Shown piece after piece: positions 19,019-42,198 of a stretch of 64,000 nucleotides of DNA (positions are counted from its first letter, which is position 1; the number at the start of each line of letters is the position of its first letter). The position numbers were made by a program, and so were the translations under genes. This DNA is from Acidimicrobiia bacterium (GTDB lineage Bacteria; Actinomycetota; Acidimicrobiia; Acidimicrobiales; Aldehydirespiratoraceae): assembly GCA_022820805.1 (NCBI GenBank), contig JAJEEV010000013.1, positions 144,967 to 208,966 on the forward strand. The letters are read 5' to 3'. Under the pieces are notes generated by a model that searched no databases, was not told the DNA's origin, and was given only the letters and a program-made list of their open reading frames with translations.

Positions 19019-20446
19019 ATGGAACGCGTGCCGCGGTCGGCCTGGCTGACGCTCGCCGCGGTGGCGGCCGCGGTGTTCATGGTGGCCATGGAGCTCACGA
19101 TCATCGCGCTGGCACTGCCTGAGATCCGCTCGTCTCTGGGCGCGGCACCGGCAGCGCTGTCATGGGTGGTGAACACTTATTCCATCGTCGTGGCGGCGCT
19201 GCTGCTGCTGTCGGGCTGGCTGGCCGACCGGTACGGCCGCAAGCGCGTCTTCCTGCTCGGTCTGCTGCTCTTCGCGCTGGGCTCGGTGGCTGCCGGCGCG
19301 TCGACCAGCATCGGGATGCTGATCGCGGCGCGGGTCCTGCAGGCCGTGGGCGGCTCCATGCAGTACCCGGCCGGCCTGGCCCTGCTGCTCGATGCCTTTC
19401 CCCGGAGCCGTCACCAGACCGCCATCGGCACATGGGGCGCCACCGGTGGCCTGGCCGCGGCCGTGGGGCCGGCACTCGGCGCGGTGCTCATCGCGGCCTT
19501 CGGCTGGCGAGCGGTGTTCTATGTCAACGTGCCGGTGGCCCTGACCGCGCTGGTGGTGGGCGCCCGGGTACTGTCCGAGAGCACCCTGTCTCCTGCTCGC
19601 TCCGCTCGCGGGCCGCTCGGGTCCGGCGACGTGCCCGAGGCCCGGGTGGACGTGATCGGTGTGCCGCTGGCGTCGGTGGGTGTGGGTGCGGTCATCCTCG
19701 GCATCGTCCAGGGCGAGTCCTGGGGCTGGGGAACCGTGCCCACCATCGGCTCCTTCGCGGTCGGCGCCCTGCTGGTGGCGGTGTTCGCATGGCGGAGCAA
19801 GCGGCATCCCGCGCCGCTGTTCGACCTCGAACTGCTCCGTATTCGCTCCTTCGTGCTCGGCAACGTCGGCTCGCTGTTCTTCGCGCTCGGATTCTTCGCC
19901 CTATTGATACCGCTGCCGTCGTTCATCCAGGAGGTCTGGGGGTGGTCGGCGCTCGAGACCGGCCTCGCGTATTCGGTGGGCCCGCTGGTGTCGTTCCTGG
20001 TTGCGCCGCAAGCCGGGCGCATCGCCGACCGGGTAGGCAACGCCCCCCTGCTCACGGTGGGATCGATCTGCGGGGTCGCCGGACTGCTATGGCTCGTGTT
20101 CACCATCTCGACCGAGCCCTCGCTGGGCCGGCTGCTCATAGCCACGGTGCTGGTAGGAGTATCGGCCGGGACCGGATTCTCGCAGCTGGTGGGGGCCGCG
20201 CTAAGCGACATTCCGCCGGAGCGCTACGCGATGGCCACCGCTGGTCGCACCACCTTCTTCCAGCTCTCGGTCGCGTTCTCCATCGCGGTCGCGTTCGCCC
20301 TCATCGGTCAGCCGGCCGGCCCCGCCGCTGAGCTGGCTGCCTTCCAGACGGTGTGGATACTGTGCGCGTGCAGCTACTTCTGCAACCTCGCGCTGTTCAG
20401 CATCGTCTACCCCCGACGCCGTGTAGGGGGCCACGCGGATGGGTGA
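19019..20446 (+). CDS. MFS drug/compound exporter, DHA2 (14-helix) type
   Basis: A 475-residue major facilitator of the EmrB/QacA group. Motif A is GWLADRYGRKRVFLLG between helices 2 and 3. A motif-C-like glycine-rich stretch, GATGGLAAAVGPALGAVL, is in helix 5. About 14 hydrophobic segments fit the DHA2 plan. The substrate is unknown, probably a toxic or signalling compound exported by proton antiport. The loop after helix 6 (SPARSARGPLGSG) is encoded by a fragment of the interspersed repeat, and the last residues (GGHADG and stop) lie in the left end of a full repeat copy. Two separate repeat remnants thus shape this coding sequence. Confidence 0.88.
   Translation: MERVPRSAWLTLAAVAAAVFMVAMELTIIALALPEIRSSLGAAPAALSWVVNTYSIVVAALLLLSGWLADRYGRKRVFLLGLLLFALGSVAAGASTSIGMLIAARVLQAVGGSMQYPAGLALLLDAFPRSRHQTAIGTWGATGGLAAAVGPALGAVLIAAFGWRAVFYVNVPVALTALVVGARVLSESTLSPARSARGPLGSGDVPEARVDVIGVPLASVGVGAVILGIVQGESWGWGTVPTIGSFAVGALLVAVFAWRSKRHPAPLFDLELLRIRSFVLGNVGSLFFALGFFALLIPLPSFIQEVWGWSALETGLAYSVGPLVSFLVAPQAGRIADRVGNAPLLTVGSICGVAGLLWLVFTISTEPSLGRLLIATVLVGVSAGTGFSQLVGAALSDIPPERYAMATAGRTTFFQLSVAFSIAVAFALIGQPAGPAAELAAFQTVWILCACSYFCNLALFSIVYPRRRVGGHADG
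19588..19628 (+). repeat. Fragment of the 137-bp element inside the MFS coding sequence
   Basis: The stretch matches the internal CGCTCGCGGGCCGCTCGG segment of the copy at 40004-40096, with a short deletion (TTGTT missing). It encodes the loop SPARSARGPLGSG in frame. Similarity is visible by eye; exact limits are uncertain. Confidence 0.5.
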
Positions 20447-20563
20447 GAACCGGTCGTGGGCGTGGCGGTGTCATTCCCGCTCTTGTTCGCTGCGCTCACG
20501 GGCCGCTCGGGCCACGGCCTCGCCCGTACGGGCAAGATTCGCGTGCCTGTCCGCTCGGCCTCT
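20427..20563 (+). repeat. 137-bp interspersed element, copy A (full length)
   Basis: The left end GGGGCCACGCGGATGGG and right end TCCGCTCGGCCTCT form imperfect terminal inverted repeats. The core starts GTCATTCCCGCTCTTGTTCG and continues with the GGGCCGCTCGGGCC block. The left end overlaps the last codons and stop of the MFS gene. The right end abuts the -10 box of the next gene. No reading frame for a transposase is present. Confidence 0.75.
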
Positions 20564-20568
20564 AGGGT
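20563..20568 (+). promoter_or_regulatory. Candidate -10 box (TAGGGT) of the leaderless flavin oxidoreductase gene
   Basis: TAGGGT begins at the last base of repeat copy A and lies 7 nt before GTG 20576. It supports GTG 20576 as the start, since the longer open frame would translate the repeat. Confidence 0.45.
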
Positions 20569-20575
20569 CACGGCC

Positions 20576-21871
20576 GTGAAGTTCGGAATCTTCTACGAGC
20601 ACCAGCTCCCCCGGCCCTGGCACGACGGCGACGAGCAGCAACTGTTCAACGAGGCGCTCGAGCAGGTGGAGCTGGCCGACAGGCTCGGCTTCGACTACGC
20701 CTGGGAGGTGGAGCACCATTTCCTCGAGGAGTACTCGCACTCGTCCGCGCCCGAGGTGTTCCTGGCCGCGTGCAGCCAGCGCACCACCAGGATCCGGCTC
20801 GGTCACGGCATCGTGCTGATGCCCCCCGGCTACAACCATCCGGCCCGCGTCGCCGAGCGGATCGCCACCCTCGACCTGGTGTCGGGCGGCCGGGTCGACT
20901 TCGGCACCGGCGAGTCGTCGTCCATCCTGGAACTCGGCGGGTTCGGAGTCCCCGTCGACGACAAGCGCCCGGCCTGGCAGGAGTCCGTCGAGCAGTGCTG
21001 CAACATGATGGCCATGGACCCCTACCCGGGCTTCGACGGCGAGTACTTCTCGATGCCGTGCCGCAACGTGGTCCCGAAACCGGTGCAGAAGCCGCACCCC
21101 CCGCTGTGGGTGGCCTGCTCGAACCGGGAGACCATCAAGCTGGCAGCCAGGCTGGGAATGGGCGCTCTCACCTTCTCGTTCGTCGACCCGCAGGACGCGG
21201 CCACCTGGGTGCAGGACTACTACCGGATCCTGGAGACCGAGTGCGTGCCCATCGGCCACGCGGTCAACCCCAACATCGCCATGGTCACCGGACTGTCAGT
21301 GCATCCCGACGCCACCGAGGCCAGACGCCGGGGCCTCGACGGGTTCCAGTTCTTCGGCTACGGACTCGGACACCACTACATCTTCGGCCGGCACAAGCCG
21401 GGCCGCACCGACATCTGGGCCGACTACCTCAAGGCCAGGCCCACGATCGAGGACCGGGGCGAGCAGAGCGGCATCGGCACCCCCGAGCAGGTCCGCACCC
21501 ACCTTCGAGGATTCGCCGAGGCCGGCGTCGACCAGGTCATCTTCATCCAGCAGGGGGGCAACAACCGCCACGACCACATCTGCGAGACTCTGGAGCTGTT
21601 CGCGGCCGACGTGATGGGCGAGTTCGCCGACGGCGAGTCCGAGCGGGACCGGGCCAAGCTGGAGCGTCTGGCCCCGGCCCTCGACGCGGCCATGGCCCGC
21701 AAGGTGCCGATGCGAGCCCTCGACGACGACGAGATCCCGGTGTTCGAGGCGCTGGGCCGCTCCATAGTGGCCACCCTGCCGCCGGCGGAGGCCTCCCAGG
21801 TGGCCGACACCGTCAAGCAATGGGCCAAGACCGACATGCCCATCCACGTCCCCGACGACTTCGGCACCTAG
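20576..21871 (+). CDS. Luciferase-like (LLM class) flavin-dependent oxidoreductase
   Basis: A 431-residue protein of the bacterial luciferase-like TIM-barrel family, which uses FMN or F420. The N-terminus VKFGIFYEHQLPRPW is the family start. Other blocks are AWEVEHHFLEEYSHSS, RIRLGHGIVLMPPGYNHPARVAE and DLVSGGRVDFGTGES. The C-terminal segment GTPEQVRTHLRGFAEAGVDQVIF is also typical. The last roughly 80 residues are a helical extension. Actinobacterial members include F420-dependent dehydrogenases and monooxygenases; cofactor and substrate cannot be assigned here. Its GTG start is set by the -10 box and by homology. Confidence 0.88.
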   Translation: MKFGIFYEHQLPRPWHDGDEQQLFNEALEQVELADRLGFDYAWEVEHHFLEEYSHSSAPEVFLAACSQRTTRIRLGHGIVLMPPGYNHPARVAERIATLDLVSGGRVDFGTGESSSILELGGFGVPVDDKRPAWQESVEQCCNMMAMDPYPGFDGEYFSMPCRNVVPKPVQKPHPPLWVACSNRETIKLAARLGMGALTFSFVDPQDAATWVQDYYRILETECVPIGHAVNPNIAMVTGLSVHPDATEARRRGLDGFQFFGYGLGHHYIFGRHKPGRTDIWADYLKARPTIEDRGEQSGIGTPEQVRTHLRGFAEAGVDQVIFIQQGGNNRHDHICETLELFAADVMGEFADGESERDRAKLERLAPALDAAMARKVPMRALDDDEIPVFEALGRSIVATLPPAEASQVADTVKQWAKTDMPIHVPDDFGT

Positions 21872-21889
21872 CCGGCGGGCAGCCCCTCA

Positions 21890-22027
21890 GCGGGCGCGCA
21901 GATCGGTGAGAGCCTGTCGCGTTCCCACGCGGTCATTCCCGCTCTTGTTCGCTGCGCTCACGGGCCGCTCGGGCCACGGCCTCGCGCCGTATGGACCGGA
22001 ATCGCTCACCCATTTCGCTCGGCCTCT
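21890..22027 (+). repeat. Interspersed element, copy B (full length, diverged left end)
   Basis: The copy has the same core and right end as copies A and E, with more mismatches at the left end (CGGGCGCGCAGATCGG) and one extra base. It fills the space between two convergent genes. Its last base is the first base of the neighbouring minus-strand stop codon. Confidence 0.7.
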
Positions 22028-23217
22028 CAGCGGGCCAGCAGGTCGGGGGTGGGGTTGTCGATGCCGAGCAGGGCGGCCAGCGCGACGGTCACCTGGTTGC
22101 CCACCGCGGGGTTCCGCTCGGGGGGCACGAATCCGGCCGCAGTGAGGCGATCACCGAGACGGATGAAGATCGTGCAGAAGCGCATGGCCCCGAACACCTC
22201 CCAGTAGTGCGGGTTCCGGACGGCGCGTCCTGAGACCTGCTCGTAGTGGGCGGTCATCTCGTCCCGCGTCGGGTAGCCCTCGAGCCGGTCGATGCCCATG
22301 TCGTCGAACGACATCCGATCGAACATCAGCCACCAGCCCATGTCGGCCTCGGTGGGGCTGAGCGCGCACACCTCCCAGTCGAGCACCGCCGCGGTGCGGT
22401 AGTCCTGCAGGATCATGTTGCCGAGCCGGGCGTCGCCCCATGTCAGCCCGACCCGCTCGTCGCCGGGGTCGTTGGCACCCAGCCAGTCGAGCGCGGCGTA
22501 CAGGATCGGGTGCTCCCGGCCCGCGAGCTCGGACCGCACGTGGTTGCGGTAAAGCTCGATCTGCAGCGCGGTCGTCGGCTCGCCGGTCCCGCTCGGGTCC
22601 AGCCACTCCAAGCCCGCGCCGCGCCAGTCCAGGCGGTGGATCCCGGCGATGACCTCGATGGCCGACAGCACCATCCGGCGCCGCTGCGCCGGCGTCGCCT
22701 CATCCACCACGAAGCCCGCCTCGGTGTAGCGGGGCACATCGGCGGGGATGCGTCCAGCCACGAAGCCCATCACGAAGAAGGGCGCTCCCAGCACCGCCGG
22801 ATCCGCTTCGTAGCCGAGCAGCGGCGGAACCGGCGCCACCCCTGCATCCGCCACCGCCTTCATGGCCCGGTACTGGAGCTCCACCGACACCGTGCACTGG
22901 GGCGTCTGGGGCGGGAACATCCCGCCGTCGGCGGGCTCGATGCGCACCGCGTAGCGCTCCCCGCGTTCAGCGCCGCCCTCGGTCCAGGCGGTCTCGAGGA
23001 TCACCGTCTCGTTCGAGAAGCCGGTGCTGACCGGGATCTCGATGTCGGTCACGGTGAGGTCGTGCCTGGCGGGAAGCGCCTGCCGCATCCACTGCTCGAG
23101 CGCAGCCCGGTAATGGCTCCGATCGGTGCGGAACTTCGGGGCGTTGGGCAGCTTGCTCCCGGCCGCGTCAGCGCGCCGCTCTCCAGCCGACTGCGAAGGA
23201 CTGCCCGTACTCGACAC
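22027..23217 (-). CDS. Phosphotransferase family protein (APH / choline-kinase fold)
   Basis: A 396-residue kinase-fold protein of the aminoglycoside phosphotransferase superfamily, in the branch common near acyl-CoA dehydrogenase genes of actinobacteria. The nucleotide-binding region includes STGFSNETVILETAW. The catalytic loop is LTWGDARLGNMI, with Trp replacing the usual His of the HGD motif, followed by the metal-binding AAVLDWEVC. The actual phosphoryl acceptor in this branch is not established, and resistance should not be assumed. The start is GTG 23217. It is 92 bp downstream of the TRAP binding protein and co-directional, so it may be a distal operon member. Confidence 0.85.
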   Translation of the reverse strand: MSSTGSPSQSAGERRADAAGSKLPNAPKFRTDRSHYRAALEQWMRQALPARHDLTVTDIEIPVSTGFSNETVILETAWTEGGAERGERYAVRIEPADGGMFPPQTPQCTVSVELQYRAMKAVADAGVAPVPPLLGYEADPAVLGAPFFVMGFVAGRIPADVPRYTEAGFVVDEATPAQRRRMVLSAIEVIAGIHRLDWRGAGLEWLDPSGTGEPTTALQIELYRNHVRSELAGREHPILYAALDWLGANDPGDERVGLTWGDARLGNMILQDYRTAAVLDWEVCALSPTEADMGWWLMFDRMSFDDMGIDRLEGYPTRDEMTAHYEQVSGRAVRNPHYWEVFGAMRFCTIFIRLGDRLTAAGFVPPERNPAVGNQVTVALAALLGIDNPTPDLLAR

Positions 23218-23309
23218 GCCGCGTAGTGTGCCGCGGATTGTTGGGCAGCGGTCGGCTCAGGCTCCGGGGCGGACCCGGAGGTCCGGGCCCCGGAGCTGCA
23301 AGCCGGGTG

Positions 23310-24578
23310 TCAGACCTGTGTCTGCTGGTCGAGGAACGACCGCTCGGCCAGACCGTGCCACTCCGAGATGCCGGCGCGGAACTCGCGCCACGGCCCGAGG
23401 ATCCTTGCGAAGTTCTCGTCGTCGGCCGCCACGCTGTCGAGCACGTTCTCGGTCTCGGCCTTGAACGCGGCCATCAACTCGGCCGGGAACTCGCGGATCT
23501 GGGCGAACCCCTTGATGGTCTGCAGATCCCTCTGGTTGAGCACGTCGTAGGTCGCCATGGTGTTCATGTTGGCGTACGCCGCGGCGGCCTGGATGGCGGC
23601 CTGGTACTCCGGGGGCAGATCGTTCCACAGGTCGAGGCTGAACTGGACCTCGACCGCGGTGCCGGGCTCCCACCACCCGGGGTGGTAGTAGTACAGGTCG
23701 CCCTGGAACTGGTCGAGGCCCAGGATCAGGTCGTCGGTCGGGCCCACGAACTCGGCACCGTCGATGGCGCCGGTCTGGATCGCCTGGAGGATCTCACCGC
23801 CGGCCAGCGTGACCTGCTCGCCGCCGAGATTCTCGAGGACCCGGCCCGCGAGGCCGGGGATGCGCATCTTGAGGCCGTTGAGGTCGTCGACCGAGTTGAG
23901 CTCCTTGGTGAACCAGCCGCCCATCTGGCAGCCGGTCGCGCCCGCGGGGAACGAGATGGTCCCGTGCTCCTCCGCGTAGAACTCGTTGAGTGTCTCGATG
24001 CCGCCGCCCTGGTACAGCCAGGCGTTCTGCTGGCGCTGGGTGAGGCCGAAGGGCACCGCAGTGCCGAACTGCTGCACGGGACTGAGGCCCACGTAGTAGT
24101 AGGACGCAGTGTGGCCGGCCTGAGCGCCGCCGTCGCGCACCGCGGGGAGCACCTCGAGGCCGCCGACGATCTCGCCCGCGGGGCGGGCGTTGATCCTGAA
24201 GCGACCGCCGGTCAGCTCGCTCACCTTCTCGGCGAAGAACTGGGCCGAGCCGAACAGCGTCACCAGCGCGGTGGGCCAACTGGTGGCCATCTCCCACTCG
24301 ATCTCGGGCCCCTGGGCGGTCACGGCCACCGTGTCGCTGGCCGTTGTGGTCGGCGCGGCGGTGGTGGTCGGGGCGTCGTCGCCGTCCGGAGCCGCCGCCG
24401 GCGCGGGAGCCTCGTCATCGCCGCACGCGGCGAGGATCGCCGAGGCGGCCGCGAATCCGGCTACACCGAGGCCTCCCTTGATGAACCCCCGTCTGGCCAG
24501 GCTCGAAGTGTCCGCCTCGTCGAGGATCAGGTCGACAGCCGAACCCTCGGTCTGGGACGAGGTTGCTTCCTGAGTCAC
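23310..24578 (-). CDS. dctP: TRAP transporter substrate-binding protein, Tat-exported lipoprotein
   Basis: A 422-residue DctP-family binding protein. It has a twin-arginine signal (R29-R30 in LARRGFIKGG) that ends in a lipobox, AILAAC, so it is predicted to be exported folded by Tat and then lipidated. A Thr/Ala/Pro linker follows. The mature domain shows family segments such as GGRFRINARPAGEIVGG and LKMRIPGLAGRVLENLG. Substrate-contact residues sit in the region around GAIDGAEFVGP; typical ligands are organic acids (2-oxo, aromatic or sugar acids). The SD GGGAGGG precedes GTG 24578. The membrane subunit genes lie upstream in the same direction. Confidence 0.92.
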   Translation of the reverse strand: MTQEATSSQTEGSAVDLILDEADTSSLARRGFIKGGLGVAGFAAASAILAACGDDEAPAPAAAPDGDDAPTTTAAPTTTASDTVAVTAQGPEIEWEMATSWPTALVTLFGSAQFFAEKVSELTGGRFRINARPAGEIVGGLEVLPAVRDGGAQAGHTASYYYVGLSPVQQFGTAVPFGLTQRQQNAWLYQGGGIETLNEFYAEEHGTISFPAGATGCQMGGWFTKELNSVDDLNGLKMRIPGLAGRVLENLGGEQVTLAGGEILQAIQTGAIDGAEFVGPTDDLILGLDQFQGDLYYYHPGWWEPGTAVEVQFSLDLWNDLPPEYQAAIQAAAAYANMNTMATYDVLNQRDLQTIKGFAQIREFPAELMAAFKAETENVLDSVAADDENFARILGPWREFRAGISEWHGLAERSFLDQQTQV

Positions 24579-24772
24579 GTGAATCCCTCCCTAGTTGACT
24601 ATTGCGCCGCCGATGGCCGGCTGTTCGGGAACGGAATCCCGGCCGGCGTCACCGGCGAGGCCGTGACAATACACCAGCGTCTGGCGGCCTGTCGAGAGGA
24701 ACCCGGCAGCCGGCGGCCGGCGCGCGCCGTCCCTTTCGAGGCGCGGCGCGGCCACCGGTACCGGGCCCGGCG

Positions 24773-26359
24773 TCAACCGAACCGGAACGTCTCGATGGAG
24801 GTGTAGGTGATGGCGGGGAAGACGGCCAGGATGACCAGGGCCACCGCCTGCAGGCCCATGAACGGGAAGGCGCCCTTGTGGATGTCGGCCGTCTTGACCT
24901 CCGGCGGCGCCACGCTCTGCAGGTAGAACAGCGAGAACCCGACCGGCGGCGAGATGAACGCCATGTTGAGGTTCACGGCCATCAGCACCGCGAACCAGAT
25001 CTTCTCATCGGGGGTGAACCCCAGGAAGTCCATGGCGGGCACGAATATGGGCACCACGATGAAGGTGATCTCGATGAACTCCAGGTTGATGCCCAGCAGG
25101 AACACGGCGATCATGGCGATGATCACGAAGCCCCACTTGCCGCCCCCGATCGAGGTCAGCCACTCCGAGGTCTGGTCGGCGCCGCCGAGTCGCTGGAACA
25201 CCAGGCTGAAGAAGGTCGAGCAGAACAGCAGTGTCATCACCAGCACGACCACGTTCGCAGTGGAATGGGCCGCGTCCTTCACCGCCTGCCAGTCGAGCCG
25301 CCATCCGGACCGGGTGATGTGGGTGGCGCCCTCCCGGACCAGCAGGCGGTCGAACAACCAGTTCAACGCAGTCAGCAGCAGCGCCCCGAACACCCCCACC
25401 GCGCCCGACTCCGACGGGGTGGCTATCCCCTGGAAGATGGAGACCAGCACCCCGAGGATCAGAACCAGCATGGGCACGATGGCGATCAGCAGCTCCGCGG
25501 CCAGCATCCGGGTCCGCCACAGGACGGCCATCGTCACCACGAAGGTGACCACCCCGGCGTACATCGACACTTCCAGACTGGCCAGCAGCATCACCCCTGC
25601 GACCATCGCGCCCAGGATCAACGCGATGATGACCTTGGTGCGCATGGACGGGTTGCCGGCAAGGGTGCGCTGCTCCTCGGGCATTGCCGGCCCGACCGAC
25701 GGCTTGAGCCACGACAGGATCACGACGTACGCGACGTAGAGCCCGCTCAGCAGCAGGCCGGGCAGCAGCGCCCCCGCGAACAGCCCCAGGATGCCGACAC
25801 CGAGCTGCTGGGCCAGCAGGATCAGCACGATGCTGGGCGGCAGCAGCTGAGCCAGCGTGCCCGAGGCGATGATGGCACCGGTGGACAGCTTGTTGTCGTA
25901 GCCGAGGCGCACCATCGCCGGCAGCGAGAGCAGGCCCATCACGATCACGGTGGCCGCCACCACGCCCGTGGCCGCAGCCAGAAGGGTGCCCACCACCACC
26001 ACCGCGGCAGCCACGCCGCCCCGCAGGCGGCCCATGAGCATCCCGAAGGCGTTCAGGAGCCGCTCGGCCATCCCGGAGCGCTCGAGGATGGCTCCCATCA
26101 GGACGAACAGCGGCACCGCCAGCAGCGTCGGGTCGCTGATCGCGACGAACCAGCGGCTCGGCAACGCGCTGAGCGCGTTCGAGTCGAACGCCCCGATCAG
26201 ATCGCCCAGGAACGCGAAGGCGATGGCGGTGCACGCGAACGAGAAGGCCACGTTGTATCCCGACAGGATCACGAGCATGAAGACGCCGAACATGGTGAGG
26301 GCCAGGAACACGCCCGCGTCCACGCCGAGGATGGTCTCCAACGCCAGCACGCCAACCAC
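24773..26359 (-). CDS. dctM: TRAP transporter large permease subunit
   Basis: A 528-residue DctM-type membrane protein with about 12-14 hydrophobic helices. Family blocks are [38 protein letters not shown] and the late [18 protein letters not shown]. It carries out sodium- or proton-driven uptake across the cytoplasmic membrane together with DctQ and DctP. It starts 3 bp after the DctQ stop. It is longer than the usual 425 residues, because of extra helices in the middle, as in the larger members of the family. A 194-bp gap to dctP holds no gene. Confidence 0.92.
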
Positions 26360-26362
26360 CGG

Positions 26363-27175
26363 CTACTCGATCCGCTGGGGGGTGTCGCGTTCCACGATGG
26401 CGCCGTAGTCGTCCCGGCCTATCAGGACGAACCCGGTCTTGATGACCTCGGCCAGCAGCTGCAGGCCGAACAGCGCGAACCCGATCAGCAGGAACGCCTT
26501 GATCGGCCCCACCGGCAGGCCCCCGGCGTCGACGGCCTGCTCCCAGCTCTGCCAGACCCGCCAGCCCTCGGGCCACTCGCCGCTGCCGGCCTTGCGGCCC
26601 AGCGACGAGGCCACATAGCTCTGCAGGATGCGGATGCTCATGAACACGAACGGCAGCAACAGCACGGTGTGCATGGCGAAGTCGAGGGCCGCCTTGGTCT
26701 TGTTGGAGAAGTTGATCCACCAGAAGTCGATGCGCGGGTTCACCCCGTCGCGGATCCCGACGTTCATGGCCACCAGGAACATGAGCCCGAAACACTGCCA
26801 GGCCAGGCTCACAACCTCGCCGATGAGGATGTCCTGCTCGACGTACTCGTTGCTGTAACGCGTGATCACGTTGAAGAACTGCAGCACGAACACGGCCCAG
26901 GCCAGGACCATGGTGACCCGCAGGGTGTAGCTCGGGATGGCCTCGATCCACACCCGCACACGGTTGAGGCCGGCGTGCCACGCCGACATCGCGATCGAGC
27001 CCACCAGCAGCGGCCACCACCACCACTCGAAGTGGGCGATCAGGTACTGCGTGTCTATGAAGAGGTGCGCGACGAGGGCCGCCAGCAGCGTCGCCACCGC
27101 CACCCAGCCCGTCGGGTGCAGGGTCCTCCAGCCCGCTGCGCTCGGCCCAGTCTCCGACGCAGCCCCCACCGACAT
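26363..27175 (-). CDS. dctQ: TRAP transporter small permease subunit
   Basis: A 270-residue DctQ-type membrane protein with four or five helices and the family segment RYSNEYVEQDILIGEVVSLAWQ, followed by DFWWINFSNKTKAALDF. ATG 27175 is chosen because a TAGTGT -10 hexamer lies 8 nt upstream; the longer open frame upstream would overlap the divergent paaD gene. The protein is larger than typical (160-200 residues) because of an additional loop around residues 200-240 (SGEWPEGWRVWQSWEQ). It heads the TRAP operon dctQ-dctM-dctP. Confidence 0.88.
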   Translation of the reverse strand: MSVGAASETGPSAAGWRTLHPTGWVAVATLLAALVAHLFIDTQYLIAHFEWWWWPLLVGSIAMSAWHAGLNRVRVWIEAIPSYTLRVTMVLAWAVFVLQFFNVITRYSNEYVEQDILIGEVVSLAWQCFGLMFLVAMNVGIRDGVNPRIDFWWINFSNKTKAALDFAMHTVLLLPFVFMSIRILQSYVASSLGRKAGSGEWPEGWRVWQSWEQAVDAGGLPVGPIKAFLLIGFALFGLQLLAEVIKTGFVLIGRDDYGAIVERDTPQRIE

Positions 27176-27183
27176 GCCTCGCG

Positions 27184-27189
27184 ACACTA
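27184..27189 (-). promoter_or_regulatory. Candidate -10 box (TAGTGT) of the leaderless dctQ gene
   Basis: On the minus strand TAGTGT lies 8 nt before ATG 27175. It fixes the start of the TRAP operon and lies back to back with the paaD promoter. Confidence 0.4.
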
Positions 27190-27254
27190 GTGGTTGGATT
27201 CTGCGGGTCGCTAGCGCAGACCGGTGGGGGCCGGCGCCTGCACTCCCACGCCCG

Positions 27255-27260
27255 TAGGGT
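27255..27260 (+). promoter_or_regulatory. Candidate -10 box (TAGGGT) of the leaderless paaD gene
   Basis: TAGGGT lies 7 nt before GTG 27268 and supports that start over the longer open frame beginning at 27190. Confidence 0.45.
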
Positions 27261-27267
27261 TGGGAAT

Positions 27268-27738
27268 GTGACCGGCGACGCTCGAACAACCGGCGCGACC
27301 GACATCATCGAGGCTCTGCGAGGGGTGGACGATCCCGAGTATCCCGGCGTCAGCGTGATCGACATGGGCATGATCGCCGATGTCGCCGTCAGCTGCGGCC
27401 GAGCCACCGTGGAGTTGATCACCACCTTCAGCGGCTGTCCGGCCCACGACGTCATCTCGGCCGAGATCACCGGAGCTGTGGGGGCGCTGGACGGCATCAC
27501 CGATGTGGAGGTGAGGCGCAGTTCCGAGCCCTGGGACACCTCGAGGCTCAGCCCGCACGCCCGGGCCGTGATGGCTCGCGACTTCACGGTGGCGGTCGCT
27601 CTGCCCGGCAGGCCGAGCGAGTGCCCCCGGTGCGGTGCAGCGGCTCTGGTGGAGCAGTCGCCGTTCGGGCCGGCTCGGTGCCGGGCCGTGCACCGCTGCG
27701 GCGCCTGCAACGAGGTGGTCGAAGTCCTACGCGCCTAA
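27268..27738 (+). CDS. paaD: PaaD-like iron-sulfur assembly protein (MIP18/DUF59 family), solitary
   Basis: A 156-residue protein. The MIP18/DUF59 domain covers about residues 8-100 (LRGVDDPEYPGVSVIDMGMI, then FSGCPAHDVI with the conserved Cys). It is followed by the PaaD-specific C-terminal zinc ribbon (CPRCG, then CGAC). In phenylacetate degradation PaaD matures the PaaABCE epoxidase. Here none of paaA, B, C or E is within 27 kb on the left or 36 kb on the right. It may serve a distant paa locus or a different metalloenzyme. The stop TAA is immediately followed by repeat copy C. Confidence 0.82.
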   Translation: MTGDARTTGATDIIEALRGVDDPEYPGVSVIDMGMIADVAVSCGRATVELITTFSGCPAHDVISAEITGAVGALDGITDVEVRRSSEPWDTSRLSPHARAVMARDFTVAVALPGRPSECPRCGAAALVEQSPFGPARCRAVHRCGACNEVVEVLRA

Positions 27739-27875
27739 AGAGGCCGAGCGAATAGGCGGGACAACGCGGCCCATACGGAGCGAGGCCGTGGCCCGGGCGG
27801 CCCGTGAGCGAAGCGAACAAGAGCGGGAATGACACCGCTGCGACGCGACAGGCCCTCGCCTATCCGCGTGGCCCC
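27739..27875 (-). repeat. 137-bp interspersed element, copy C (full length)
   Basis: Read on the minus strand, it starts GGGGCCACGCGGATAGG and ends CCTATTCGCTCGGCCTCT, which makes this the copy with the clearest terminal inverted repeats. It fills the whole space between the convergent stops of paaD (27738) and bsaP (27880). Confidence 0.78.
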
Positions 27876-27879
27876 TACC

Positions 27880-28047
27880 TCAGTCGGGGCCGCAGTTGCG
27901 GCAGCGGGCCGTCCATCTCGCGGGGGTGACCGACGTGGCCAGCCAGGCCCCGCAGCGGTCGCAGTACCGGGGCGGATCCAACTCGGGCAGGCAGCCCGCA
28001 CATTCGCGGCGGCCGCAGCCGCAGCAGTAGCTGCCGGTCCTGCTCAA
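27880..28047 (-). CDS. bsaP: Biotin synthase auxiliary protein (small Cys-rich)
   Basis: A 55-residue Cys-rich protein directly downstream of bioB. The TTG start at 28047 overlaps the bioB TGA (TTGA), so translation is coupled. Nine cysteines occur as CCGCG, CAGC, CDRCG and CRNCG motifs, with PPRYCDRCG in the middle. In actinobacteria a small Cys-rich protein encoded next to bioB (BsaP, formerly a hypothetical) carries an iron-sulfur cluster and is required for biotin synthase turnover. Size, position and Cys pattern fit that family. The exact cluster ligands cannot be assigned by eye. It ends 4 bp from repeat copy C. Confidence 0.75.
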   Translation of the reverse strand: MSRTGSYCCGCGRRECAGCLPELDPPRYCDRCGAWLATSVTPARWTARCRNCGPD

Positions 28048-29042: not shown

Positions 29043-29049
29043 GCTCGGA

Positions 29050-29055
29050 ATCCTA
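29050..29055 (-). promoter_or_regulatory. Candidate -10 box (TAGGAT) of the leaderless bioB gene
   Basis: On the minus strand TAGGAT lies 7 nt before ATG 29042. It gives bioB-bsaP its own promoter separate from the upstream liv operon. Confidence 0.45.
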
Positions 29056-29074
29056 CGGCTATCGAGGTGTTTGT

Positions 29075-29896: not shown

Positions 29897-30684
<788 letters not shown>

Positions 30685-32423: not shown

Positions 32424-32502
32424 GGTCTCCTCCAAGGTTTGTCTTCTGTGGGTTAGGAGCACCCGGATGGCGCTCACATCTTGACCTCAAGGAGGTGGCA
32501 TT

Positions 32503-33753: not shown

Positions 33754-33791
33754 CGGTCAGGATCCTCTCAGGAGCTGGTCGGGCAGCATCC

Positions 33792-34913: not shown

Positions 34914-36799
34914 CAGTACATCGACTCCACCAGGTCGCCGAACATGTCCTCCATGGCGTTCCGCTTCAACTTCTGGGTGGCGGTCAGCTCACCGTCCTCG
35001 TGGTCGAGCTCCTTGGGCAGCATCTTGAACTTCTTGATCTGCTCGACCCGGGCGAACTTGGCGTTGGTCTCGTCGACTACCTTCGACACCAGCGCCACGA
35101 CCTCGTCCTTCTCCGACAGGTCCCGGTAGGTGGTGTACGGGATGTTGTTGCGCTGGGCCCAGTCGCCCACCGTCTCGAGCTCGATGCCGATCAGGGCGGT
35201 CACGTACCTGCGGCCGTCGCCGATGACCATGGCCTCCTTGACGTAGGGCGACGTCTTGAGGCTGTTCTCGATCTCCGACGGGGAGATGTTCTTGCCCCCG
35301 GAGGTGATGATGATGTGCTTGATGCGGTCCACGATCTTCACGTGGGTGCCGTCCACCCACACCCCGACGTCGCCGGTCATGAGCCAGCCGTCGGAGGTGA
35401 AGGTCTCCGCGGTCTTGGTGGGCTTGTTCCAGTAGCCCTTGAACACGCCGGGATGCTTGGTCTGGATCTCGCCGGTCGTCTCGTCGATACGCAGCCCGAT
35501 GTCGGAGTAGGGCTCCCCCACCGTGCCCAGCTTCATCCGGCCCGCGAAGTTGCATGTGGCCACCGCGGAGTTCTCGGTCATCCCGTACAGCTCGAACACC
35601 GGCACGCCGATGCCGATGAAGAACTCGAGCACCTCGGGCGCGATCGCGGCCGCGCCCGACCCCGCGTGGCGGCAGCGCCGCAGGCCGATGCGCTCCTTCA
35701 TGGCCCGGAACACCAGCGGCTGGCCCACCGCGTACAGCAGGCGGGTCAACAGTGTGTGGCTCCCGCCGTTGGCCACCTTCCTGCGGCCGATGACCCCCGC
35801 GAGCGCCATCGTGACGCGCAGGAAGAGCTTCTTGAAGGGCGTCGCATCGTTGCCCTTGATGGTTACCAGGGCGTGCAGGCGCTCCCAGATCCTCGGCACG
35901 GCGAAGAACAGCGTCGGCTGCACCTCCCGGAGGTTCTCGGTGACCGTCTCGATCGACTCGGCGAAGTTGAGGGACGGCCCGGCGCCGACCAGCGTCCAGG
36001 TGGAGAAGATGCGCTCGGCCACATGGCACAGGGGCAGGTAGGTGACGATCAGATCCTTGGGACTGGGGCCGACCCGGTCGGGGAACCGATCGACCTCGTT
36101 GACGATCTTGTCGATGCAGTACGCCGCGTTGGCGTTGGTCAGCATGGCGCCCTTGGGCGGCCCCGTCGTGCCCGACGTGTAGACGAGGGTCATCACGTCG
36201 GTCTCGGCGGCTTCGGCCATCCGCCGGGCCACCGCGTCGGGATGGGCCTCGCGATGGCGCCGTCCCATCTCCAGGAACGTGTCCCAGAACAGCAGGCGGG
36301 AGTCGTCGTAGTCGCCGAAGCCGCGCGGCTCGGTGTAGATGATCCGGCGGACCGATGCAGCCGTCTCGGCGGGTACCTCCAGCACCTTGTCGGCCTGCTC
36401 CTGGTCCTCGGCGAAGAAGACGGCCGGTGTGCAGTCACTGATCAGGTACTCGACCTCCGCGGTCGGGTTGGTCGGGTAGAGACCGACCGTGATGCCCCTC
36501 ACGGCCACGGTGGCCAGGTCGAGGATCACCCACTCGGGCCTGTCCTCGGAGTGGATCGCCACCCGGTCGCCGACATCGAGGCCCAGCTCCAGCAGGCCGT
36601 GGGCTGCGGTCTCGATCAGATCCCAGGTCTCGGCCCAGGTGAACTCCTGCCAGATGCCGAAGTCCTTCTCGCGCAGGGCGACCTGGCTGGGGTTGCGCCG
36701 GGCCCAGTCCCGGGCCAGCGACGCCACGGTGGTCGCGCCGGCGGTCGCATCCGCCGGCGGCGGAACCTCAGGGGTGGGACGTTCCGAAGTGATGGTCAC
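34913..36799 (-). CDS. Long-chain-type acyl-CoA synthetase (AMP-forming)
   Basis: A 628-residue adenylate-forming enzyme. The P-loop motif is TLVYTSGTTGPPKGAML, followed by the A5-type ELYGMTENSA and the late SDGWLMTGDVGVWVDG and KNISPSEIEN segments. It activates a carboxylic acid to its CoA ester. Overlap with livH and co-direction with the whole transporter suggest that it traps the imported acid as a CoA thioester. It starts 56 bp after the acyl-CoA dehydrogenase. SD GGGAGG precedes GTG 36799. The acid, whether fatty or aromatic, is not determined. Confidence 0.92.
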   Translation of the reverse strand: MTITSERPTPEVPPPADATAGATTVASLARDWARRNPSQVALREKDFGIWQEFTWAETWDLIETAAHGLLELGLDVGDRVAIHSEDRPEWVILDLATVAVRGITVGLYPTNPTAEVEYLISDCTPAVFFAEDQEQADKVLEVPAETAASVRRIIYTEPRGFGDYDDSRLLFWDTFLEMGRRHREAHPDAVARRMAEAAETDVMTLVYTSGTTGPPKGAMLTNANAAYCIDKIVNEVDRFPDRVGPSPKDLIVTYLPLCHVAERIFSTWTLVGAGPSLNFAESIETVTENLREVQPTLFFAVPRIWERLHALVTIKGNDATPFKKLFLRVTMALAGVIGRRKVANGGSHTLLTRLLYAVGQPLVFRAMKERIGLRRCRHAGSGAAAIAPEVLEFFIGIGVPVFELYGMTENSAVATCNFAGRMKLGTVGEPYSDIGLRIDETTGEIQTKHPGVFKGYWNKPTKTAETFTSDGWLMTGDVGVWVDGTHVKIVDRIKHIIITSGGKNISPSEIENSLKTSPYVKEAMVIGDGRRYVTALIGIELETVGDWAQRNNIPYTTYRDLSEKDEVVALVSKVVDETNAKFARVEQIKKFKMLPKELDHEDGELTATQKLKRNAMEDMFGDLVESMY

Positions 36800-36855
36800 G
36801 CGTCGACCTCCCTTGTGCCTGCACTCGTGAGTCGGCTGGACGGGCGAACGCTACT

Positions 36856-38166
<1,311 letters not shown>

Positions 38167-38185
38167 GGAACAGACTCTGCGGTGG

Positions 38186-38395
38186 TCACGACGACAGCAG
38201 TGATGCTAGGGCCCAGATCGCAGCCACCGAGCCGACGATGATGTACAGCACGCAACGGCCCACCGGAGCCCGCTCCAGGTCAGCGGGGTCGCGCTTGTGC
38301 GTCCGGGGCCGCAGCAAGGCCGCGACATTGCCGGCCGCCATGGCGCCGCCCAGGGCCAGCATCAGCCAGGCCAGGATGTTCTGCCCGAAGAGCAC
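38186..38395 (-). CDS. Small two-helix membrane protein
   Basis: A 69-residue protein with two predicted membrane helices (LAWLMLALGGAMAAGNVAALL and CVLYIIVGSVAAIWALASLL) joined by a charged loop RPRTHKRDPADLE. Family unknown. It lies 14 bp after dnaB and 19 bp before the acyl-CoA dehydrogenase, all co-directional, which supports it being real. No function can be assigned. Confidence 0.6.
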   Translation of the reverse strand: MLFGQNILAWLMLALGGAMAAGNVAALLRPRTHKRDPADLERAPVGRCVLYIIVGSVAAIWALASLLSS

Positions 38396-38409
38396 TCAGA
38401 GGCCTCCAG

Positions 38410-39804
38410 CTAGATGGACGACCGGGCCGCGAAGTTGGCGAAGGTCGTGAACCGCGACAGGAAGGCGAGGGTGGTGGTGGCGGTCGGCCCGTTGCGGTTC
38501 TTGGCCACGATGATCTCGGCCGTGCCCGCGGTGTCGGCGTTGTCGGGGTTGTACACCTCGTCACGATAGATGAACATCACCACGTCGGCGTCCTGCTCGA
38601 TGGCTCCGGACTCGCGCAGGTCCGCCAGCATCGGGCGCTTCTGCTGGCGCATCTCGAGGTTCCGGGAGAGCTGCGACAGCGCGACCACCGGGCACTGCAG
38701 CTCGCGAGCCAGGATCTTCAGGCCCCGCGAGATCTCGGCCACCTCGACCTGACGGTTGTCCGCGCTCTGCCGGCCGGTCATCAACTGGAGATAGTCGACA
38801 ACGACCATGGCCAGATCGCCGACCTGGCTCTTGAGCCGTCGTGCTCGGGCCCTGATCTCCATGACCGTCACGTTGGGGTTGTCGTCGATCCACATCGGCG
38901 CGGTCGAGAACCGGCTGATGGCGTTGGTGATCGCGTCCCAGTCGTCGTCGCCCAGCCGGCCGTCGCGCATCTTGGTGGAGTCCACCCGGGCCTCGGCACA
39001 CAGCAGCCGCTGGGTCAGCTCCATGTGACCCATCTCCAGCGAGAACACCAGCACCGGCCGCCGCGTCTTTATCGCCGCGTGGGCGGCCATGCCCAGCGCG
39101 AACGAGGTCTTGCCCATCGATGGTCGGCCGCCCACCACATACAGGGAGCTGGGCTGCAGGCCTGAGAGAAGCTTGTCGAGGTCCTTGTAGCCGGTCTCGG
39201 TTCCGGTGATCGACCCGCCGTGCTCGTACAGCTCCTCGAGGCGATCCAGGGTCCCGTCCAGCAGGTCCGACAGCTGGACGGTGTTATCGCCCACCTGGCC
39301 CTGGGCCACCTGGTACATCAGGTTCTCGGCCCAGTCCACTGCCTTGGTCACATCGTCGGGACGGCCGTACCCCAGCTCCGCGATCTCCCCGGCAACCTCG
39401 ATGAGCCGGCGCAGGGTGTGGTTCTCATGGACGATGCGGGCGTATGAGGCCGCGTTCGACGTCGCCGGCGTGTTCATCTGCAGCGACAGGAGGCCGTCCA
39501 GGCCGCCGATGGTCTCCAGCGATCCGTTCCGCTCGAGGACCTCGGCCACCGTCACCGCGTCGGCCGGGTCCCCCGCTCCGTAGAGATCCCGCACAGCATC
39601 GAAGACACGGGCATGCGCCGGACGGTAGAAGTGCTCCGCCGACACCGTCTCGAGCGCGTCGGCGATGGCATCACGGGACAGCAGCATCGCGCCCAGCAGG
39701 GACTCCTCGGCCACCAGGTTGTGGGGCGGAACCCGCACGTCGCGCCCCCCACCGTCGGTGGGGGCGGCCGTGCTCTGCCACTGCGCGCTGTCGGTGACAC
39801 TCAT
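38410..39804 (-). CDS. dnaB: Replicative DNA helicase
   Basis: A 464-residue DnaB-family hexameric helicase. The N-terminal domain begins at PPHNLVAEESLLGAML. The RecA-like ATPase has Walker A GGRPSMGKT (225-233), Walker B-like MVVVDYLQLM and the conserved SQLSR and DLRESGAIEQDAD segments. No intein is present, although dnaB often carries one in actinobacteria. ATG 39804 is the first start next to the family N-terminus; the upstream open frame is non-homologous. The gene follows rplI, as in many actinobacteria. The likely loader, dciA, is at the right edge of the window. Confidence 0.96.
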   Translation of the reverse strand: MSVTDSAQWQSTAAPTDGGGRDVRVPPHNLVAEESLLGAMLLSRDAIADALETVSAEHFYRPAHARVFDAVRDLYGAGDPADAVTVAEVLERNGSLETIGGLDGLLSLQMNTPATSNAASYARIVHENHTLRRLIEVAGEIAELGYGRPDDVTKAVDWAENLMYQVAQGQVGDNTVQLSDLLDGTLDRLEELYEHGGSITGTETGYKDLDKLLSGLQPSSLYVVGGRPSMGKTSFALGMAAHAAIKTRRPVLVFSLEMGHMELTQRLLCAEARVDSTKMRDGRLGDDDWDAITNAISRFSTAPMWIDDNPNVTVMEIRARARRLKSQVGDLAMVVVDYLQLMTGRQSADNRQVEVAEISRGLKILARELQCPVVALSQLSRNLEMRQQKRPMLADLRESGAIEQDADVVMFIYRDEVYNPDNADTAGTAEIIVAKNRNGPTATTTLAFLSRFTTFANFAARSSI

Positions 39805-39860
39805 GTGTGGACGCCCACTAGTGACTCTCCCCCGCGGCCGTGCCCGCTCTGTCTCACGAC

Positions 39861-39877
39861 CGTACCGAGGGGGTACG
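39861..39877. promoter_or_regulatory. Short inverted repeat between rplI and dnaB
   Basis: CGTACC-GAGGG-GGTACG forms a 6-bp stem with a 5-nt loop, 57 bp upstream of the dnaB start in the 289-bp rplI-dnaB gap. It could be an operator or a weak terminator. The rest of the gap holds repeat copy D and no gene. Confidence 0.3.
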
Positions 39878-40003
39878 ACACGCGATCGGGCAGCCGGTTG
39901 ATAGCGCTGGGGATTTCGCGAGCCGCGCCGGGGAAGTTGGGGGATGGTGCGCTTGCGATGTGGAAGGGCTGTGGGCGGCCCGTTCAATCCGTCAGTCGGA
40001 CTG

Positions 40004-40096
40004 TGTCTCCCGCTCTTGTTCGCTGCGCTCGCGGGCCGCTCGGGCCCCGGCCTCGCCCGTATGAGCCGGCCTCGCCCGCCTATCCGCTCGGCCTCA
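40004..40096 (+). repeat. Interspersed element, copy D (left end missing)
   Basis: The core (CCCGCTCTTGTTCGCTGCGC, then GGGCCGCTCGGGCC) and right end CCTATCCGCTCGGCCTC are present. The left third found in copies A, C and E is not recognisable. The right end contains the stop codon of the minus-strand rplI gene (40094-40096). Confidence 0.7.
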
Positions 40097-40543
40097 GTTC
40101 TCGGCGGTCACCTCCACGGTGACCGGCACGGCAACGTCGGCGTGCAGCTGGAACAGCACCGTGTGCGAGCCCACCTCCCGGATCGGGGCATCGAGCACCA
40201 CCGTCTTGATGTCGACCACCGCTCCGACCTGGGACTCGACCGCAGCCACAAGGTCGGCCGGCCCGACCGATCCGTAGAGATGGCCCGTCTCCGCGGCCCG
40301 CGCCCCGATGGCCAGGACCGCCGGTGCCAGGCGGACCGCGATCTCCTCCGCGTCGGCCCGGTCGGCGGCCCTGCGCAGGGCTGCGCTGCGCCGCATGGCC
40401 TCGGCCTGCCGCTCCGCGCCCGGAGACGACTTCAGGGCCAGACCCTTGGGAACGAGATAGTTCCGCGCGAAGCCCGCGGCCACGTCGCAGACATCGCCCT
40501 TGCGGCCGAGCCCCTCGACATCTGCTCGCAGGACGACCTTCAC
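40094..40543 (-). CDS. rplI: Ribosomal protein bL9
   Basis: A 149-residue L9 with the N-terminal signature [34 protein letters not shown] and a C-terminal domain ending in [12 protein letters not shown] 40543 overlaps the rpsR stop by 4 bp (GTGA). The stop codon lies in the right end of repeat copy D. The order rpsF-ssb-rpsR-rplI-dnaB is the standard bacterial S6 operon plus helicase. Confidence 0.95.
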
Positions 40544-40968
40544 GCCCGCTCCTCCTCGCTGACGACCAGCTCACCGTCCTCAGCGGCCTCGCCGGCCGCG
40601 CCCGCGTCGGCCTCCTCATCATGGGCCGCGCCGGGAGGGGGACCGGAGGGACGCGGCACCGGACCGGCGGCGCGGCTCCGGCCGTCACGGTCCTTGTTCT
40701 GGCGCTGGGTGGTCACCCGGTTCGCATAGGGCACGAGAGCCATCTCCCGGGCCAGCTTGATGGCATCGGCAACCAGCTTCTGCTGCTGGGCGCTGTTGCC
40801 CGTGACGCGCCGAGCCCTGATCTTGGCCCGCTCGGACATGAACTTCCGCAACAGCTTCTCGTTCTTCCAGTCGACGTAAGTGATCCCCTCTGTGGTGAGG
40901 AAGCTCACCTTCTTCTTCGCTCGCCGGCTGTTGTCGCGGTTCTTGCCCCGCACCTTGGTCTTGGGCAC
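40540..40968 (-). CDS. rpsR: Ribosomal protein bS18, Cys-less, with a long acidic C-terminal tail
   Basis: A 142-residue protein. Residues about 20-85 are S18 ([22 protein letters not shown], then [32 protein letters not shown]). The N-terminal region has VSFLTTEG in place of the CPFC-type zinc motif, so it is a zinc-free form. Residues from about 90 on are a Pro/Gly/Ala/Glu-rich tail that is absent in ordinary S18 (75-85 residues) and ends [13 protein letters not shown]. The tail is in frame with no sign of frameshift and is translated up to the rplI overlap. Function of the tail is unknown. Confidence 0.92.
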
Positions 40969-40978
40969 TGCTGCCTCC

Positions 40979-40997
40979 CCTGTCCGCTCGGCCGCCT
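40979..40997 (+). repeat. Degenerate solo element end at the ssb stop
   Basis: CCTGTCCGCTCGGCCGCCT resembles the right end CCTATCCGCTCGGCCTCT with one substitution and one short insertion. It covers part of the ssb stop codon at 40996-40998. Confidence 0.35.
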
Positions 40998-41478
40998 AGA
41001 ACGGCTCGTCGTCGGTGCCGGACGAACCCTGCGCGTGGCTGTCGCCGCGGCTGGGAGCCTGTCTCGGGCCACTGTCGCCGCGGTACGAACGGCCGCGTCC
41101 GCCGTCACCGCGATAGTCGCCGCCACCGGAACGCTCGTTCTTGGTCACGGCGGCCGTGGCCCACTTCAGGCTGGGGGCCACGTCGTCGGCGAGGATCTCC
41201 ACCTTCGAGCGGCGGTCGCCCTGGTCGTTCTCCCAGCTCCGCTGCTGGAGGGTGCCGTACACGACGACGCGGGCACCCTTCTTCAACGACTCGGCCACGT
41301 TCTCAGCGAGCTGGCGGAAGCAGGTCACATCGAAGAACGAAACCTCGTCCTCCTGGTCCTGGCGCCTGCGATTCCATGCCACGCCGAACTGGGCGATGGC
41401 CATTCCAGACTGCGCGAAGCGCAGTTCGGGGTCGCGGGTCACATTGCCCACGACGGTCACGGTGTTGTCGAATCCCAT
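40996..41478 (-). CDS. ssb: Single-stranded DNA-binding protein
   Basis: A 160-residue SSB. The OB-fold runs from about residue 1 to 108 (TVTVVGNVTRDPELRFAQSG, then FDVTCFRQLAENVAESLKKG and VVVYGTLQQRSWE). A Gly/Arg/Ser-rich linker follows, with the acidic partner-binding tip DDEPF at the C-terminus. It is located between rpsF and rpsR, in the normal order. Confidence 0.96.
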   Translation of the reverse strand: MGFDNTVTVVGNVTRDPELRFAQSGMAIAQFGVAWNRRRQDQEDEVSFFDVTCFRQLAENVAESLKKGARVVVYGTLQQRSWENDQGDRRSKVEILADDVAPSLKWATAAVTKNERSGGGDYRGDGGRGRSYRGDSGPRQAPSRGDSHAQGSSGTDDEPF

Positions 41479-41494
41479 GGGGAACCTCCGGATC

Positions 41495-41839
41495 TCAGCC
41501 GGCTACAGCCGGCTTGGCCTCCTCGAGCAGACCGCGGCGCTCGGCCTCGGCGTCGGGAAGACGGAACAGTTTGTGGCGGACTATGTCGTCCGCGAGCCGC
41601 AGCCGCCGTTCGGTGTCGGGAAGACCGGCCGTCGAGGTCACGATCTCCCACACCACATAGGTGCCTTCGGTCTTGTGATTGATCTTGTAGGCGAGCTTGC
41701 GCCGGCCCCAGTTGTCGATGGACGCAACCGTCCCCCCCTCGCCGGCGACCAGGCCGGCAACGTTGGAGATCACCGCGTCCACGTCATCGGGCGCCACATC
41801 GGAATCGATGATGATCATCAGTTCGTAGGCCCGCAGCAC
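41495..41839 (-). CDS. rpsF: Ribosomal protein bS6
   Basis: A 114-residue S6 that begins VLRAYELMIIIDSD, matching the family N-terminus, and contains WGRRKLAYKINHKTEGTYVVWEI. GTG 41839 is chosen because GGGAGGTGA lies 6 nt upstream; an in-frame TTG at 41845 would lie directly against that ribosome site. It is the first gene of the S6 operon. The C-terminal tail EAERRGLLEEAKPAVAG is short. Confidence 0.94.
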   Translation of the reverse strand: MLRAYELMIIIDSDVAPDDVDAVISNVAGLVAGEGGTVASIDNWGRRKLAYKINHKTEGTYVVWEIVTSTAGLPDTERRLRLADDIVRHKLFRLPDAEAERRGLLEEAKPAVAG

Positions 41840-42198
41840 GGGCAATCACCTCCCTACGGATCCGGCGCTGCCGGAGCCCCTCGACGGGGCAGGGTTCGTT
41901 CTCCGGCCGAACCGGCGCGGAATCCGACAAGAGAGCCCGAACTGGATCAGCTACCGATCGGCAGGGTATCGGCGGTGCCGTTCATACCAACCGCCCGACT
42001 TCGGGGCCACGCGGACAGGTGCGAGCCGGTCGCGGTGCATCGGTGTCATTCCCGCTCTTGTTCGCTGCGCTCACGGGCCGCTCGGGCCACGGCCTCGCGC
42101 CGTACGGACCGAGTGGTCCCGCCTATCCGCTCGGCCTCTCAGCATCCCCAGGATTCCACAAGACCGTCCCCAGGCGGGATCCAGCGAACCGCTCGGCC
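41840..42198. other. Intergenic region between rpsF and panB
   Basis: This 359-bp gap has no convincing coding frame. It contains repeat copy E (42003-42139) and a further degenerate element end, AACCGCTCGGCCTC at 42187-42200, at the panB stop. A stem CGGCGCTGCCG near 41863 could be part of the rpsF leader. No promoter was assigned. Confidence 0.6.
42003..42139 (+). repeat. 137-bp interspersed element, copy E (full length)
   Basis: The copy runs from GGGGCCACGCGGACAGG to CCTATCCGCTCGGCCTCT, with the full conserved core between. It contains an additional hairpin GGACC-GAGT-GGTCC near the right end. It lies between rpsF and panB. No target duplication is obvious. Confidence 0.78.

Follow-up and report, generated by a model that had tools for sequence, protein, structure and literature searches.

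A short repeat with a constant core in an Acidimicrobiia genome is very probably a miniature transposable element of an IS5-family insertion sequence

A 64,000-nucleotide (nt) stretch of an Acidimicrobiia genome (contig JAJEEV010000013.1, positions 144,967 to 208,966; hereafter the window) carries five copies of an interspersed repeat of about 136 nt. We are confident that this repeat is a miniature inverted-repeat transposable element (MITE) of an insertion sequence (IS) of the IS5 family, IS1031 type. As far as our searches go, it constitutes a new family; a literature search judged by titles and the beginnings of abstracts returned no paper on this repeat, which is not proof of its absence from print. 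A sequence-only reading of the window had proposed a MITE mobilised in trans, and this proposal is now supported by further copies in the genome, a target-site duplication, empty sites in relatives, and a transposase associated with matching ends. What that reading did not contain is the TNA target with its link to stop codons, the several left-end types, and the contrast between the core and the far less conserved left inverted repeat.

The repeat is abundant in the genome from which the window comes (G000; 3.40 Mb in 53 contigs). A 30-nt core pattern with up to 3 mismatches matched 154 sites, not all of full length, versus 0 for the reversed control, so that the expected further genomic copies do exist. 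The surveys of ends, flanks, stop codons, gene context and conservation in G000 cover 1.60 of the 3.40 Mb. A profile search of this portion yielded 75 matches, of which the 73 at E <= 1e-3 were retained, and 48 of these 73 copies have both ends. The two-ended copies measure 136 nt (n = 22), 135 nt (n = 13), 137 nt (n = 7), 134 nt (n = 4), 133 nt (n = 1) and 150 nt (n = 1); as in a MITE, the repeat is short, multi-copy and apparently non-coding, with 47/48 of these copies at 133-137 nt. At this length it is too short to encode a transposase, and the sequence-only reading had seen no frame for one.

As is also characteristic of MITEs, the repeat has terminal inverted repeats, here of 17 nt, with a common GCGGATAGG. 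The right-end consensus is GAGGCCGAGCGGATAGG. The left end is type-dependent: beside the main type, GGGGCCACGCGGATAGG, there are two additional types, all picked by eye, and among 50 copies the nearest type is divided 25, 13 and 12, with some copies up to 8/17 mismatches away. The imperfect 15-nt inverted repeats described earlier hold as a consensus (13/15 matching), and individual copies vary. The right-end motif GCTCGGCCTC taken by itself occurs at 158 sites, 67 within copies and 91 elsewhere, versus 38 for the reversed control. Since 61 of the 91 lie within called genes (12 more are at a called stop), only part of these solitary motifs can be remnants of the element.

Two further observations concern the distribution of copies along contigs. 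Eight G000 contigs (C1, C3, C8, C12, C13, C14, C15 and C28) have an end in or near a copy, at most about 130 nt away; the repeat thus breaks the assembly of these draft genomes. Copies in the surveyed part of G000 are mostly co-oriented within a contig, with neighbours alike in 43/60 cases and 50/73 copies on the G-rich strand as judged by GC skew. Orientation by replication does not hold as a general rule, as the pattern is missing in G008 (26/57 neighbours alike, excluding tandem repeats and single-site contigs) and on contig 1 of G041 (12 against 12).

The five copies first read from the letters of the window are real, and a 27-nt core pattern has five mismatch-free matches there versus 0 in 100 shuffles. 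Copy A (20427-20562, plus strand) is flanked by TAG on both sides (20424-20426 and 20563-20565), with its left 17-nt terminal inverted repeat, of the main type, at 20427-20443 and its right one at 20546-20562, where the consensus reads on the minus strand. Copy B (21890-22026, plus strand) is flanked by TCA at 21887-21889 and at 22027-22029, the latter being the TGA stop of a minus-strand APH-family gene. Copy C (27740-27875, minus strand) has unequal flanking 3-mers, GTA and TTT, and lies directly 3' of a PaaD-like gene (27268-27738), right after its stop; the next gene is the putative bsaP of the sequence-only reading. Copy D (40006-40095, plus strand), at the 3' end of rplI, is a left-less unit made of the core and the right end. 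Copy E (42003-42138, plus strand) is flanked by unequal 3-mers, TTC (42000-42002) and TCA (42139-42141).

The near-constant length given earlier, 137 bp, is borne out in its constancy; base 137 reads as the first base of the flanking TNA or TAG, so that the element itself measures about 136 nt. The claim of a nearly invariant core likewise stands, with the constant stretch longer than had been thought: it comprises 48 nt, CCCGCTC...CGGCCTCGC, together with the terminal GCTCGGCCTC, and the GTCATT part of the earlier core is absent from copy D. The 48-nt core lies at 20476-20523 in copy A, 21938-21985 in B, 27780-27827 on the minus strand in C, 40009-40056 in D and 42051-42098 in E. The window also holds three lone right ends without a core, at 18975-19005 (plus strand), 43146-43176 (plus strand, decayed) and 55929-55946 (minus strand). 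By eye, copy D (40006-40100) appears to replace the final rplI codons; its outer flank resembles the 3' end of rplI in relatives, and the stop now spans the junction.

The flanks of the copies point to a defined target that is duplicated upon insertion. TNA is found at 25/48 left and 21/48 right flanks, versus a frequency of 2.1% in the 1.60 Mb surveyed, and outward of both ends TNA is preferred, within a preferred CTNAG. The left and right 3-mers are identical in 12/48 two-ended copies against a permutation mean of 3.3, and none of 10,000 shuffles reached 12. TNA stands on both sides in 12 copies, and the two flanks of 10 of these are equal, against a mean of 2.9. A target-site duplication, which the sequence-only reading had asked to be looked for, is therefore present, and it is 3 nt long and mostly TNA.

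A likely mover with matching ends is found in the same genus, family and order, although not in the window's own assembly. An IS in G056, located among loci with a PF01609 match, has TTA on both sides and ends carrying GCGGATAGG. Its transposase of 276 amino acids scores 156 bits against NF033580 (IS5 family; cut-off 110) and exceeds the cut-offs of PF13340 and PF01609; IS5-family profiles were tested on this member, and the others were found by similarity to its transposase. A scan of the first ten PF01609 loci showed matching inverted ends at L286, a related end at L289 and none at the others. The length of the IS is about 954-968 bp, obtained by subtraction from three with both ends. With an IS5-family transposase and a 3-nt TNA duplication, this cognate IS has the features of the IS1031 group.

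For the IS ends of the family, we searched 12 of the 20 family loci (L339 and L348 overlap) for the inner GCGGATAGG, allowing at most 2 mismatches, and all 12 show at least one end of this type. We then compared 20 IS ends, 4 of which were chosen with an added T-N-A/G flank filter. Three of them (L340, L345 and L438) each differ at 1/17 positions from the right-end consensus of the element, and one (L439, in G205) differs at 1/17 from its main left end; the other left types are 2/17 away from the IS ends of L335, L337, L339 and L344. TNA adjoins 12/16 IS ends from the family scan. Where both flanks of an IS could be read, they are TAA/TAA (L336), TTA/TTA (L286 and L359), TTG/TTG (L347, equal over 3 nt and not TNA) and TAA versus TAT (L335); the remaining IS of the set are seen at one end only.

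The distribution of the transposase is consistent with this assignment. The G056-type transposase occurs in 8/51 genomes of the window's family, namely 7/22 that bear the element (genera g1 and g2) and 1/29 others (Fisher p 0.015; 6/22 and p 0.034 without a weak match in G004). Among 18 further genomes of the order, it is present in 4/8 with the core or a variant of it (the match in G057 being weak) and in 0/10 others.

We also compared the window sites with the orthologous gaps in genus relatives, for which 14 loci were fetched per site. At site A, 9/11 readable relatives are without the core, with N masking a further one; G006 carries a copy of its own in opposite orientation at a different position, and in G012 the same junction is occupied by a copy. 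At site B, 5/14 loci were readable; 4 of these are without the core, and the remaining one has a copy at a different place in the gap. Site C lacks the core in 13/13 readable relatives, whose junction reads CTGA in 11/13 and CTGAG in 4/13, the TGA being the stop of the PaaD-like gene. The core is absent from 14/14 relatives at site D and from 11/13 readable relatives at site E, where the other 2 hold short units in opposite orientation. Sister species thus provide the empty sites that a mobile element predicts at most window positions. These site differences among relatives suggest that copies turn over quickly and that some gaps are hit repeatedly. As a separate observation in the interval 20563-20580, a TAGRGT motif just before the start of a luciferase-like gene borders copy A, as it does the copy in G012; this motif is perhaps the -10 box of a leaderless message.

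Together, these observations suggest a probable course of events. An IS5-family transposase would recognise the 17-nt ends of the element in trans, as their match to the IS ends indicates. The element inserts at C-TNA-G-like sites with duplication of TNA, a step that the flank statistics show and with which the unfilled sites are consistent. Insertions within genes would be purged by selection, leaving copies to gather at gene ends, in agreement with the counts given below, and there the duplicated TNA, as TAA or TGA, could preserve the stop codon. The transposase may come from other members of the clade, or from a copy that this genome has lost or that its draft assembly does not include. Both the 48-nt core and the right end may remain nearly constant either because they are needed for spread or because they are useful to the cell.

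Several points weigh against the assignment to an IS5-family MITE. The window's own assembly contains no such transposase and no PF01609 match, and 15/22 element-bearing genomes of the family are without the transposase. The IS ends were sought through GCGGATAGG, so that only their outer 8 nt, and in the family scan also the flank, are independent of the search. The element and the IS are alike at the termini only, as judged from three IS against the element consensus. A related multi-copy IS in G052 (L289 and L360-L362), with GAGGCCGCGCGGATTGG ends, adjoins CCAGG/CCTGG rather than TNA, possibly reflecting a changed target. The flanking 3-mers are unequal in 36/48 two-ended copies, which could result from ageing or from duplication of only 2 nt at a CTAG target. 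Conservation along the element is the inverse of the usual MITE pattern, in which the ends and not the inside are expected to be constant: among 49 full copies, mean pairwise identity reaches 97.4% in the 48-nt core and 99.2% in the last 10 nt, against 67.5% in the left arm and 69.7% in the part that follows the core. Finally, while 54 of 69 right-intact copies have a left arm, 14 start at the core (0 start within the core and 1 beyond it), and several of these 14 left-less copies adjoin TNA or TAG, a finding for which two-ended IS5 transposition offers no explanation.

The constancy of the core opens the possibility, which we consider less likely than not, that it is a site useful to the host, either a protein-binding dyad or a single-strand hairpin, selected after insertion as has been proposed for IHF (integration host factor) and GANTC sites of other bacterial repeats. 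The core is constant across 176 distinct 48-nt variants (344 occurrences, with overlapping loci counted repeatedly). On the minus strand it reads GCGGCCCGTGAGCGNAGCGAACAAGAGCGG, and within the 30-mer variability peaks at the N of GTGAGC-GNA-GCGAAC, the central position of what could be a GNA triloop. GNA loops in DNA are of high stability. In 99 distinct variants taken from loci, 8 changes affect both sides of one of the six stem pairs, and 7/8 are complementary, versus 17/47 when the partner is slid by 1-3 positions; the 8 changes include variants from G057 and G077 that have perfect dyads there. The count becomes 15/16 once 31 hand-picked variants are added; the evidence is weaker without them, and we regard the hairpin as a lead and not as a result. 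A standard energy model gives no such stem on either strand, and 195/200 shuffled versions of the 30-mer reach an equal or better fold. Moreover, the excess of stem-pair co-change is small, and unpaired neighbours show more. DNA folds of the whole element have z-scores of -1.1 to -1.7, which are not significant. Against a host site more generally, the occupied sites vary from one sister species to another, which is not what a fixed host function would show, and Rfam gave no match at gathering scores in window positions 20300-42300.

The same constancy could instead reflect mobility of the core itself. It is conceivable, although we consider it rather unlikely, that the core and right end form an independent mobile or spreading unit and that the 136-nt form arose when this unit was joined to different IS5 left ends, with two routes of mobility overlapping. 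The left-less copies share one start, the core, as the counts above show, and units bearing the core form tandem arrays in G000 and its relatives. The three left types are joined to an unchanged core and right end. The spread of the core also bears on this possibility. The core pattern was found in 11/198 genomes sampled from the order: G000, three genomes of genus g2, G055 (4 sites), G074 and G217 (a single site each), and four members of genus g68 (family f59), which carry 18-53 sites apiece. The repeated occurrence of the same core in g68 favours an independent unit; in that genus, a GGCTCRGCCTC right end follows the core in 9/12 loci examined. On the other hand, the right end of the unit is itself an IS5 end. 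Forms with the left arm also occur, by eye, in both g2 and g68, so that left-less units may be deletion products. Our search for a second transposase was for Y1 alone, which was excluded, and it leaves no candidate.

There are 76 core sites in G008 and 49 in G041. A scan of named genomes returned at least 111 loci, and among the 80 listed are Acidimicrobiia and Acidimicrobiaceae metagenome assemblies, one Microthrixaceae and one unclassified bacterium. Several of these metagenome bins are presumably of sponge origin. Collections of phage and plasmid records gave no match to copy E, and the 30-nt core pattern had no exact match in viral contigs. A combined view, which we put forward tentatively and with no great expectation, is that the 48-nt module alone is transposition-competent or maintained by the host, perhaps via a minus-strand dyad or GNA-loop hairpin, that it has been repeatedly fitted with different IS5-type ends, and that its spread takes in at least two distant families within a single actinobacterial order; the selfish or useful part of this MITE would then be the conserved inside and not the ends.

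The location of copies at gene ends had raised a further possibility, that they act as transcription terminators or as mRNA 3'-end elements, which we now find very improbable. Genes for these counts come from a home-made caller and not from a curated annotation. Gene context could be placed for 66/73 copies, the rest lacking a right end or a neighbour gene, and the stop survey used 69. Consistent with a role at gene ends, 24/69 copies touch a called stop; 19/69 right ends and 6/50 left ends lie on one, versus about 0.3 each for displaced controls. Of the 66 placed copies, 42 are in co-directional contexts, 12 in divergent, 10 in convergent and 2 inside genes, and this spread over divergent and convergent contexts runs counter to termination. 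A scan of region 20300-28000 showed no stem-loop with a T run in copies A-C.

Target choice accounts for the location by itself. The 1.60 Mb contain CTNAG at 197 stop codons, 348 intergenic positions and 1899 positions in genes. The share of non-genic copies at stops, 24/67 (36%), equals that of non-genic CTNAG sites at stops, 197/545 (36%), where the 67 are the 69 copies of the stop survey minus the 2 genic copies of the context survey, and the non-genic CTNAG counts include sites created by the elements themselves. Thus copies do sit at gene ends, as the sequence-only reading had remarked, and because TNA includes TAA and TGA and genic insertions are lost, this placement follows from target choice plus selection and needs no terminator role.

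That the repeat is REP-like (repetitive extragenic palindromic) and moved by a Y1 transposase of the RAYT (REP-associated tyrosine transposase) kind, as had also been suggested, can be set aside almost entirely: although the element is short, strand-asymmetric and possibly hairpin-forming, and its orientation tracks GC skew in G000, PF01797 is found in 0/22 element-bearing g1 and g2 genomes versus 8/29 others of the family, and the orientation pattern is missing in G008 and on contig 1 of G041. With REP sequences and their BIME (bacterial interspersed mosaic element) assemblies with RAYT, the element shares its small size, abundance, extragenic position, tandem arrays and possible hairpin; it differs in that its carriers are without the Y1 transposase and that it has a 3-nt duplication, which is not known as a Y1 feature.

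An IS5-family MITE can be set beside other known systems. RUP, ERIC/RU-1 and Correia-type elements have TA as their target. The element differs from these in using TNA, in having several left-end types, in a 48-nt core more constant than its left end, and in its 154 core sites in G000. It resembles them in size, in its terminal inverted repeats and in its many intergenic copies, one account giving about 105-155 nt, terminal inverted repeats and many intergenic copies for these MITEs, and an internal IHF site for one Correia form (PMC2229807). Within the IS1031 group, ISLrh is reported to have 857 bp, 17-nt terminal repeats and 3-nt TNA duplications, with a TGA insertion in pGK12 (PMC12016507). 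The cognate IS described here is similar, at about 954-968 bp with 17-nt ends mostly beside TNA; the element itself is without a transposase gene and matches the IS at its ends only.

Elsewhere in the window, ARAGORN predicted a minus-strand tRNA-Gln at 6445-6540, inside a 32-nt repeat array (6430-6554); this prediction is probably spurious.

These results provide a counted example of how a short CTNAG target can bring a transposon to stop codons with no recognition of gene ends, and location at gene ends alone is therefore no ground for proposing a terminator or regulatory role. The constancy of its core makes this MITE more than a routine one. If the core is functional, the tens to about 150 natural copies per genome, together with the occupied and empty sites of sister species, would be available for finding its partner.

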